The translations under genes were made by a program, and so were the position numbers. A stretch of DNA of 64,000 nt from an uncultured Algimonas sp. (GTDB lineage Bacteria > Pseudomonadota > Alphaproteobacteria > Caulobacterales > Maricaulaceae), in the NCBI GenBank assembly GCA_937923575.1, contig CALDUL010000016.1, forward strand, positions 1-64,000, read 5' to 3'. The notes under the pieces are model-generated. The model saw only the letters and a program-made list of their open reading frames with translations. It was not told the DNA's origin and ran no database searches. Shown one piece after another: positions 38,349 to 55,353 of this stretch. How positions within the stretch are numbered: position 1 is the stretch's first letter; each line of letters begins with the position of its first letter.

Positions 38349-38492
38349 GGGATGATGTCGGCGCTTCGCGCCGCGCTCGCTGCGCGAGACTAGCCTTCTA
38401 ACCATTACAGCCCCTTCGTCCGCGGCTACGGAGCGGGTGAAAACGCTGTGGGCGCGGCTTGGCGTGATCTCGATGGTTTTGGAGGTTGAGTG

Positions 38493-38585
38493 AAAGACCG
38501 GACACCGACCCGCGGGCGAATCGTTACGGCTGCTTCGTTCCCGACCTGACCGGGTTGGCGACAGACCACGTCCGGGCCGATCTTT
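38493..38585 (-). ncRNA. ffs: signal recognition particle 4.5S-type RNA
   Basis: Read on the minus strand, the stretch contains GGTCAGGTCGGGAACGAAGC followed by AGCCGTAACG, the conserved SRP RNA apical domain (GGUCAGG...GGAA tetraloop side, AGCAGCCGUAAC internal loop) that binds Ffh. The ends AAAGA and TCTTT, and CGGAC and GTCCG inside them, pair to form the stem, giving about 93 nt, the size of alphaproteobacterial SRP RNAs. The GGAA loop variant and exact ends are by eye. It sits between the P450 gene and nudC, near dnaX, a frequent location in bacteria. The remaining 144 bp upstream (38349-38492) hold nothing I recognise. Confidence 0.9.
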
Positions 38586-38694
38586 CGAGCGCGATATGGC
38601 GAAAGCCGCCGGCTTTCGCAAGTCTGCAAAACCGCTGTCGTGATGCGCGCATATGAGCTTTGCCAAGAGCCGCGCGCCGCGATAGCCCAACGTC

Positions 38695-40074: not shown

Positions 40075-40917
40075 TCAAGCTTGACCCAGTCTGACGGGGT
40101 CAGCCGGGTAACTGCCGAGGTGGCGGACTTCCTCGGTAAAGAAGCGCAGCTCATCCAGGGCGTGCCGCATCGCCTCACTGTCGGGATGGCCTTCGACATC
40201 GCAATAGAACTGCGCCGCCTTGAACCCACCGCCGACCATATAGCTTTCCAGCTTGGTCAAGTTCAGCCCATTGGACGCGAAACCGCCCAACGCCTTATAG
40301 AGCGCAGACGGCACGCTGCGCAGTCGAAACACGAAGGAACTGACACAAGGCCCTGAATTTACATCGGGTATGCGCGCCTCTCTTTCCAATACGATGAAAC
40401 GCGTCGTGTTCGAGCCGCTGTCTTCGATGTCGGCGGCGAGGATCTCCAAGCCATATGTTTCGGCGGCCTTCACGCTCGCCACCGCTGCCACAGAGCTGTC
40501 TCCGCGCTCGGCAACCTTGCGCGCCGCGGCCGCCGTATCGACGTCTGCTTCGCTGTCGATGCCCAATCGAGCGAGGCTCTCACGGACCTGCCCCAGCGCC
40601 ATCGGGTGAGAGCGCGCGACGCGAATACCGGAGAGTGTGGCACCCTTCAGGCCCAGCAACTGGTGATGGATCGGCTGATAGCGCTCCGCCGTGATGAACA
40701 GGCCGCCGGACGGCAGCAGGTGGTAGATATCGGACACCCGGCCCGCGACTGTGTTCTCGACCGGAATCATCGCGATCTCCGCCGCGCCCTCGCGCACCCG
40801 CTCAAAGGCCTGCGCAAAGCTGGCACAGGCCCAGCTCTCGTGATTGGGGAAGTGTTCCTGGCAGGCGAGATCGGAGAAGGCTCCGGGTTCACCCTGATAG
40901 ACAATGCGTGCGCTCAT
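40075..40917 (-). CDS. pheA: prephenate dehydratase
   Basis: A 280-residue monofunctional enzyme converting prephenate to phenylpyruvate in phenylalanine synthesis. The catalytic domain has GEPGAFSDLAC, MIPVENTVAGRVSDIYHLL and the key Thr in SGSNTTRFIVLE (about residues 165-176). The C-terminal ACT regulatory domain follows, with GLNLTKLESYMVGGGFKAAQFYCDVEG; here ESY replaces the usual ESRP phenylalanine-binding motif. No chorismate mutase domain is present. Directly upstream lies a large inverted repeat (40920-41186), which would form its 5' leader if transcribed. Confidence 0.94.
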   Translation of the reverse strand: MSARIVYQGEPGAFSDLACQEHFPNHESWACASFAQAFERVREGAAEIAMIPVENTVAGRVSDIYHLLPSGGLFITAERYQPIHHQLLGLKGATLSGIRVARSHPMALGQVRESLARLGIDSEADVDTAAAARKVAERGDSSVAAVASVKAAETYGLEILAADIEDSGSNTTRFIVLEREARIPDVNSGPCVSSFVFRLRSVPSALYKALGGFASNGLNLTKLESYMVGGGFKAAQFYCDVEGHPDSEAMRHALDELRFFTEEVRHLGSYPADPVRLGQA

Positions 40918-40919
40918 GT

Positions 40920-41186
40920 AGGTCGTGAACTCATAAGTGGGACGGATTTTGATCGTTCAAAGCGTTTCATGGGCTAGGCGCGGGCTCGCCGCGGTGTCCG
41001 TACACCGCAAGAGACCGCAACGACGTCCCATTAACCGCTTTGGACGACCCCGAAGGGGCAGCTTTGGGGCGTCTCGTGGACGTCGTTGCGGCTTTTGGCA
41101 AGGCGGACGCATTGTCTGCAAGCCGCGCCTAGCCACGAAACGCCGCAAAGCTGTCAAAACACGCCCCACTTGTGAGTTCACGACCT
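40920..41186. repeat. 267-bp imperfect inverted repeat with nested stems
   Basis: The left arm 40920-40983 and the reverse complement of 41123-41186 are about 80% identical over 64 bp, allowing one single-base shift. Both begin AGGTCGTGAACTCA and end GGCTAGGCGCGG. Inside, CCGCAACGACGTCC (41015-41028) and GGACGTCGTTGCGG (41078-41091) pair perfectly. The two 31-bp segments between outer and inner stems are equal in length but unpaired, and the left one holds its own hairpin GCGGTGT-CCGT-ACACCGC (40991-41008). The 49-bp apical loop holds CCCC-GAA-GGGG. No coding is supported. It could be a MITE-like element, or a structured RNA with a central bubble (6S-like in shape), or a pheA leader. Confidence 0.7.
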
Positions 41187-41328: not shown

Positions 41329-41988
41329 ATGGATCCACTTGGTACAAACAAGATCATGGCTGCTGTGCTGGGCGCCGCGCTGGTCTTCATGGCGATCCGC
41401 ACGATCCCCGAATTCCTAATGCACCACGATGTGCCGGACGTTCCGGCCTATCAGGTCGGTCCGCTCGAAGTCGTAGAGACTGGTGGCAACGAAGACCTCC
41501 CCTTCCCGCAACTCGCCTGGGTCGATGCGATGGATGCGGAGCGAGGCGCCAAGGTCTTCAAGAAATGCAAGTCCTGCCACAATGTCGAAGCCGGCGGCGC
41601 GCATAGCACGGGCCCGAATCTTTACTCCGTCGTCGGCCGCCAATCTGGCGGAGCGTCTGGTTTTGCCTACAGCGGCGCGATGTCAGGCGCGGGTTATAGC
41701 TGGGGCTATGAGGAGCTGGACGGCTTTCTGAAGAAGCCGAGCGAATACATGCCCGGAACGAAGATGAACTTCGTCGGCTTGAAGAAGCCGGCAGACCGCG
41801 CTGCCGTGATCGAATATCTGCGCGTGGCGGCGGCTAATCCCGTTTCGCGCCCCGAACCCGCTGCCGCTCCGCTGACCGAAGAGGCCGAGACTGCGACTGT
41901 CGAGGTCGATGGTGGCGTAGAGATCGAAGAGCCGACGCTGGACGGTTTGGGCACGGACGACGCGCCTGCCGAGAATAGCGAAGACTAG
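41329..41988 (+). CDS. membrane-anchored c-type cytochrome (CycM/c552-like)
   Basis: A 219-residue electron carrier. An uncleaved N-terminal helix (about residues 8-28) anchors it in the inner membrane with the heme domain in the periplasm. Heme attachment is C80-K-S-C83-H84 in FKKCKSCHNVE, and the distal ligand is Met146 in MPGTKMNFVGL. The layout is that of class I mitochondrial-like cytochrome c with an anchor, as in Paracoccus c552, which links the bc1 complex to cytochrome oxidase. The acidic, Ala/Glu-rich C-terminal tail (about 170-219) is extra. It ends 3 bp before the convergent NlpC/P60 gene. Confidence 0.9.
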   Translation: MDPLGTNKIMAAVLGAALVFMAIRTIPEFLMHHDVPDVPAYQVGPLEVVETGGNEDLPFPQLAWVDAMDAERGAKVFKKCKSCHNVEAGGAHSTGPNLYSVVGRQSGGASGFAYSGAMSGAGYSWGYEELDGFLKKPSEYMPGTKMNFVGLKKPADRAAVIEYLRVAAANPVSRPEPAAAPLTEEAETATVEVDGGVEIEEPTLDGLGTDDAPAENSED

Positions 41989-54849: not shown

Positions 54850-55353
54850 CTAGCTCATGATGGCCAGTGCAATCTGAGACGTCGGCCAGACCGTCAGCGC
54901 ACCAGCGGAGATCGCCAAGCCGTAGGGCATGTGGCCTTCGCCTTGAAACATCTTGTTGATGAACACGGTGCCCTCCAAGCGGACAGGCACATATTTCCGC
55001 CCGATCAAGAGCACCAGCCCAAGCGCCGCCCCGAATAGCGTGGTGTAGAGGATAAATGACATCACCTCGGTGAAACCGAACCACAGGCCGACAGAGCTCA
55101 TCAGCTTGACATCGCCCGCGCCCAATCCTTTCAGCGCCCATAGGATGAAGCCGACGACGAAGAGAATACCGCCGACGGCCATATGCTCGCCAAACCATTC
55201 CAGCCCGCCCCAGGTCAGAGGCAGCGTGACTGCGAACGAGGCCATAACGACGGCGGACACCCAGTTCGGGATCTTCATTTCCGAGAAATCCGTATAGCAC
55301 GCCACCATCAGAGGGGCGACAAACAGCAATGTAACGATGAAGCCGAGAACCAT
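54850..55353 (-). CDS. cpaA: Flp prepilin peptidase CpaA/TadV
   Basis: A 167-residue type IV prepilin peptidase of the short class with about five membrane helices. The catalytic aspartates are Asp22 in CYTDFSEMKIPNW and Asp81 in KGLGAGDVKLMS, the standard pair. It cleaves the leader of the Flp pilins and probably of the TadE-type pseudopilins encoded nearby. The N-methylation domain of larger prepilin peptidases is absent, as usual for Tad systems. Placed downstream of the two pilin genes on the same strand. Confidence 0.95.
   Translation of the reverse strand: MVLGFIVTLLFVAPLMVACYTDFSEMKIPNWVSAVVMASFAVTLPLTWGGLEWFGEHMAVGGILFVVGFILWALKGLGAGDVKLMSSVGLWFGFTEVMSFILYTTLFGAALGLVLLIGRKYVPVRLEGTVFINKMFQGEGHMPYGLAISAGALTVWPTSQIALAIMS

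Follow-up and report, generated by a model that had tools for sequence, protein, structure and literature searches.

The window analysed here is a stretch of 64,000 nucleotides from an uncultured Algimonas sp., and between pheA and a divergently oriented cytochrome c gene it carries a non-coding element of 267 bp, which lies upstream of pheA with its edge 2 nt from the start codon (Table 1). The initial annotation had described a large imperfect inverted repeat at this position, and this repeat is real: its 64-31-14-49-14-31-64 layout agrees exactly with the sequence, and no inverted repeat elsewhere in the window is stronger at spacings of up to 1.5 kb. Its folding energy is better than that of all 200 dinucleotide shuffles with DNA parameters (z -12.5) as well as with RNA parameters (z -13.7). 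The outer 33 bp are 88% complementary to each other. Open reading frames in the element are short and overlapping on both strands, the longest (130 aa) extending past it, and inspection of both strands revealed no transposase gene. Neither a sigma-70-type promoter nor a T-run terminator was found for the element, the latter as already stated in the initial annotation. The element is not 6S or another Rfam RNA: the Rfam search suggested in the initial annotation gave no match for the element in the window at the gathering score or by E-value, and a search over nine loci holding relatives resulted in weak sub-threshold matches only. A bacterial small SRP RNA is located about 2.4 kb away from the element.

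Table 1. Features at the pheA–cytochrome c locus (positions in the window).
Feature	Position	Strand	Evidence or remark
Bacterial small SRP RNA	38489..38586	-	RF00169, 53.1 bits
pheA (prephenate dehydratase)	40075..40917	-	PF00800, E 1.3e-52
Whole element	40920..41186	.	flanks ...CATG-T and G-TCGC; left junction TA, right junction TG (imperfect)
64-bp arms of the inverted repeat	40920..40983 / 41123..41186		
Perfect 14-bp inner stem	41015..41028 / 41078..41091		
P1 left arm, terminal inverted repeat, AGGTCGTGAACTCATAAGTGGG..., IS5-type end	40920..40952	+	18 nt in common with an IS5-family element end (L169)
P2 arm, 95-nt hairpin; base stem TCGTTCAAAGCG / CGCTTTGGACGA	40953..41047	+	covariation; arm length fixed in other copies
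P2 internal-loop motif, 5' half, AGGCG	40976..40980	+	conserved motif
P2 internal-loop motif, 3' half, CAACG	41018..41022	+	conserved motif
P4, central mini-hairpin, CCCCGAAGGGG	41048..41058	+	comparison of copies
P3 arm, 95-nt hairpin, roughly the mirror image of P2	41059..41153	+	covariation; fixed length
Mirrored motif in P3, CAACG	41084..41088	-	conserved motif
Mirrored motif in P3, AGGCG	41126..41130	-	conserved motif
P1 right arm, terminal inverted repeat	41154..41186	+	complementarity to left arm
Cytochrome c gene, divergent from pheA	41329..41988	+	PF00034, E 2.6e-12

The pairing originally proposed, a set of nested stems, resembles the minimum-energy RNA fold of the single copy, but the comparison of copies supports another one in which the outer stem P1 (33 bp) encloses two independent 95-nt arms, P2 and P3, with an 11-nt mini-hairpin between them. 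This geometry is near-invariant, running 33-95-(9-11)-95-33 from outer stem through arm, mini-hairpin and second arm back to the outer stem, and 34 of 45 copies are 264–268 bp long. In an orientation-coherent MAFFT alignment of the eight copies from the genus both partners have changed in 47 of the 101 predicted pairs, and 92.8% of the cells are paired compared to 33–42% when the partner is slid by one to three bases. Among 50 matches aligned to a covariance model 99 of the 101 pairs vary on both sides, with a covariation score of 0.69 (0.17 when shuffled and at most 0.13 when slid) that is an upper estimate, since the alignment is biased towards the model and some copies are represented in it by both strands. 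The eight-copy alignment and a comparison of the arms of 45 copies are free of the two-strand problem, and the latter also works without a class-wide alignment. In these 45 copies the two arms of P1 are on average 86% complementary within a copy, whereas the similarity of a given arm between copies is 45%, compared to 39% for shuffled arms; the bases of the P2 and P3 arms follow the same pattern with 74–76% versus 38–40%. The interior fold is the most conserved property of the family, and the idea of a decayed MITE with a central bubble is too simple. Conservation of fold and size amid a near-complete turnover of sequence suggests selection on the fold itself. P2 and the reverse complement of P3 have a mean identity of 0.60, barely above the 0.56 of shuffled sequence, and we do not claim that the arms are duplicates; only their motif is clearly mirrored.

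This motif forms an internal loop in each arm and consists, read on the arm's own strand, of AGGMG (AGAAG in some copies) on the 5' side and CRACG on the 3' side. It is present in P2 of 40 and in P3 of 33 of the 45 copies, compared to 0.5% in shuffled sequence, and position 4 of AGGMG lies opposite the R in CRACG without Watson–Crick pairing. AGGMG/CRACG with the neighbouring conserved A.G and G.A mismatches looks like a non-canonical internal-loop motif, for which the data are suggestive. Owing to this mirror arrangement of the arms, exactly one arm is in motif form on whichever strand is read.

The covariance model R1 was built from the eight genus copies and matches the copy in the window over model positions 1–267 with 272 bits. 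With R1, relatives were detected in 15 genomes out of the 137 of the family, belonging to six genera; they are full-length, except in a few of these genomes that have partial matches only. Across the class, full-length relatives are present in 18 of the 385 genomes or species sampled, with 85–158 bits, whereas scores in 180 kb of control DNA do not exceed 10.4 bits, and this count of 18 is a lower bound because R1 misses some true members (L165, L166). Relatives are also located on plasmids of Nitratireductor and Phyllobacterium, where they occupy intergenic sites, one of which touches an annotated gene at its end. A search of phages and plasmids by DNA similarity gave no match to the copy in the window, and the relatives surfaced there only with other family members as query. 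The model also matched an 80-bp near-perfect hairpin (L130, G093 C1:393471-393550), which is probably unrelated.

A single copy per genome had been named in the initial annotation as an outcome that speaks against a MITE, and the opposite was found. The source genome (G000; 2.58 Mb in 122 contigs, about 85% complete) holds three copies, the one in the window and two more full-length relatives, and the closest sister species (G011) holds at least six, with further copies of the same genus in G012 and G009 and five copies in G028. They adjoin unrelated genes at unrelated loci. Besides the pheA locus described below, empty sites were identified for five more copies, two from G000 by comparison with G011 and three from G011 by comparison with G000, and a sixth for a copy on contig C26 of G011, compared only with the more distant G017 and G006 of the same genus; the flanks at these sites have diverged and an exact target duplication is not readable there. 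The C26 copy (L112, 1576–1842) occupies a gap of 9 nt that separates two co-directional genes and must therefore, as we infer, be tolerated inside an operon transcript. It begins at the stop codon of one gene and stops a few bases short of the other's ATG, and both look like purine-biosynthesis genes. On contig C6 of G028, whose genome is nearly complete and has no IS5_3 transposase, three full-length copies lie within 12 kb at 55271, 65653 and 67169 (L124, L158 and L131), two of them 1.5 kb apart.

Autonomous elements with the same termini came to light when annotated plasmids were searched with the element ends. An 840-bp IS5-family element from Methylobacterium (L169) starts with 18 nt, AGGTCGTGAACTCATAAG, that are identical to the end of the element in the window; its inverted partner end is TTATGAGTCTACGACCT, it is flanked by TA on both sides and it encodes an IS5-family transposase (NF033580) in two frames. 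Three further IS or IS-like elements (L170, L171 and L178) have 16–17 nt of the same end with a weaker inverted partner 1.1–1.3 kb away, and IS5 transposases are annotated in L171 and L178. The family has a second end class, AGGGTCAGGACC..ATTAAT, which is also found on elements of 832–836 bp (L173 and L174), with DUF4096 and DDE domains in the transposase of L174. TA is present at both junctions in 38 of 55 family copies and at one or both junctions in 52 of them, the copy in the window belonging to those with TA at one end only. IS427-group elements of Paracoccus are 832–865 bp long and mostly have 2-bp target repeats (PMC3281130), and the assignment to an IS427-like group is based on size, two-frame organisation and the 2-bp target.

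Neither an end-pattern search nor a transposase-family search of the source genome revealed an autonomous parent with matching ends, no IS with matching ends was found in G028, and most of the carrier genomes checked, including the source genome, have no IS5_3 transposase; in such carriers the partner is therefore either missing or lost, or it belongs to another type. In G142 a decayed IS5 remnant was considered and dismissed, its end being about 85% like one end class and thus too weak to count. The covariance model did not match the IS and other end-match loci (L169–L179, L182), and none of these IS has the interior of the element. By their ends, the 45 copies form 12 classes at 70% identity. 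In Phyllobacterium two relatives (L167 and L168) have much of the interior in common but different ends, each matched on both sides, and such a joint replacement of both ends would fit an adaptation to different IS5-type transposases. Variants of other sizes exist as well. In G133 three elements of about 161 bp (L144, L149 and L163) and one of 66 bp (L153) combine the AGGGCCTGTGGACAATTA ends of the 266-bp class with a shorter, different interior, and several near-identical copies among them suggest recent activity. A class of 300–325 bp with AGAGC...GCTCT-like ends (L121, L123, L126, L132, L134 and L139 from G133, G137, G142 and G143) shows an enlarged centre where the mini-hairpin would be.

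The element is thus multi-copy and insertion-polymorphic, with IS5-type ends, TA flanks and a covarying fold that is found class-wide, and we regard it as probably a MITE of about 266 bp with IS5-family (IS427-group-like) ends that is moved in trans and whose hairpins work as folded nucleic acid. The initial annotation had left the choice between MITE ends and a structured RNA, and each was partly right, the first with regard to dispersed copies, empty sites, TA and IS5-family termini and the second with regard to the conserved covarying fold. Mobilisation in trans by an IS5-type transposase is a strongly supported inference, and such enzymes would insert the element at intergenic TA sites. 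The part enclosed by the ends consists of the two roughly mirror-image 95-nt hairpin arms and the central mini-hairpin, and with the same internal loop in each arm, on the arm's own strand, any transcribed or single-stranded strand would present one arm. The hairpins would then act as folded nucleic acid, and the fold could make an insertion beside genes and inside operons tolerable or could recruit a host factor.

Whether RNA or DNA is the folded form can be approached from the stems, as G.U pairs should outnumber A.C mismatches in the stems of a single RNA strand under selection. Over all stems 140 G.U pairs were counted versus 125 A.C mismatches, showing no overall single-strand bias, and RNA is therefore not proven. 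In the eight orientation-coherent copies the ratio of G.U to A.C is 17:5 in P2 and 4:14 in P3, and with each arm read on its motif strand it becomes 31:9 (small and non-independent counts), a lean that fits hairpins selected on their own strand. The fold might instead act as DNA, with hairpins or a cruciform in single-stranded or supercoiled DNA joining the ends or being recognised during transposition, and the two-fold mirror arrangement of the arms, the same four-armed fold obtained with DNA parameters and the missing G.U excess over all stems would agree with this. However, the transposases of the IS5 family belong to the DDE enzymes and work on duplex ends, the interior is missing from the autonomous IS elements examined, and the 31:9 lean is what RNA would show. 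We consider an action as DNA rather unlikely and see a slight lean towards RNA in host transcripts over single-stranded or cruciform DNA.

Complementary arms could also be maintained in a MITE by a mutational process, such as template switching at hairpins or conversion from arm to arm, instead of selection on the fold. Correction towards perfection is known for long palindromes, any transposase requires ends that match each other, and a lack of an overall G.U excess over A.C is in line with this process. Yet the mismatches persist, with A59.G105 in all eight genus copies and G.A at 61/103 in six of them, and the mismatched positions covary: of the bases facing each other in the loop, 38 arms have A.G and 30 have C.A (68 of 73 arms, with 5 exceptions), corresponding to the variants AGGAG/CGACG and AGGCG/CAACG. 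Moreover, correction alone does not explain arms fixed at about 95 nt and a length of about 266 bp across families, and we consider this process an improbable source of the pattern.

For a fixed structured RNA gene or a cis-regulatory leader of pheA one could cite the position 2 nt upstream of the start codon, the very stable RNA fold and the strong covariation with a conserved loop that covaries outside Watson–Crick rules. Against this, the pheA–cytochrome gap of G011, whose pheA is 94–97% identical to that in the window, is intact without the element, which is also absent from the pheA gap in the other genomes of the genus whose gap was read; the other copies lie beside unrelated genes, the ends are of transposon type with TA, and Rfam gave no match. 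A comparison of orthologous gaps had been suggested by the initial annotation, and the absence from the closest relative fits a mobile element, not a fixed RNA gene. A leader specific for pheA is refuted by the empty gaps and a fixed RNA gene is very improbable, while a general RNA role may exist within the mobile element. In G003, which belongs to the same genus, pheA is distant with 36% identity (L050) and perhaps a replacement.

MITEs are usually treated as decayed IS remnants with incidental folding. As a plain MITE the element would be ordinary; what surprises is a fold that keeps its size throughout a class although its sequence has turned over almost completely. With the size constant and both sequence and ends turned over, this points to selection on the fold, and dozens of natural variants are now available for asking why a gene-less element needs one. 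The covariance model also allows the annotation of repeats that are missed by sequence similarity. In the review and open-access literature we found MITEs that fold incidentally and CIR repeats and no description of this element family, which does not prove that an earlier description is absent. We tentatively put forward the possibility of an undescribed class of mobile elements in which the fold and not the sequence is conserved (33-95-11-95-33 with the mirrored motif), which would have spread through the Alphaproteobacteria, repeatedly exchanging its ends for different IS5-type transposases, and whose arms would act as RNA (or single-stranded DNA) from either strand.

Among known systems, REP/REPIN and ERIC-type sequences are likewise dispersed, palindromic and non-coding. 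REPs are 20–40 bp long, have GTAG or CGTC as tag and are accompanied by a RAYT transposase, and ERIC is enterobacterial; size, ends and fold of our element all differ from these, and membership in REP/REPIN was rejected on the basis of size and ends. The CIR repeats (Caulobacter CcrM-associated intergenic repeats; Chen and Shapiro 2003, as described in PMC2229807) are also intergenic in Alphaproteobacteria, with two stem arms, a linker and TA at the termini, but according to that description they are about 110 bp long, lack terminal inverted repeats and have a conserved GANTC, whereas our element of about 266 bp has long terminal repeats and is depleted in GANTC (none in the copy in the window, and 4 sites in 22 copies versus 21.7 expected), and it hardly can be one of them. 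With the IS427-like group of the IS5 family (832–865 bp, Alphaproteobacteria) the element shares the terminal repeat sequence and the TA flanks, and it differs in having no transposase and an interior unrelated to the IS interiors examined. The terminal inverted repeats, the dispersed insertion-polymorphic copies and the lack of an internal transposase gene are features of a MITE that the element shows, and its ends in common with autonomous IS (L169; L170, L171 and L178; for the second class L173 and L174) are those of an IS5-family MITE. Like the bacterial MITEs RUP with IS630-Spn1, Correia/NEMIS and MITEPye1 of Paracoccus yeei, it is small, non-coding, intergenic and insertion-polymorphic, with ends of an IS family and stem-loops. 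Unlike them, it shows a covarying four-arm structure in place of one long stem, and a single interior architecture of fixed size is kept class-wide while the sequence and even the terminal repeats are replaced.
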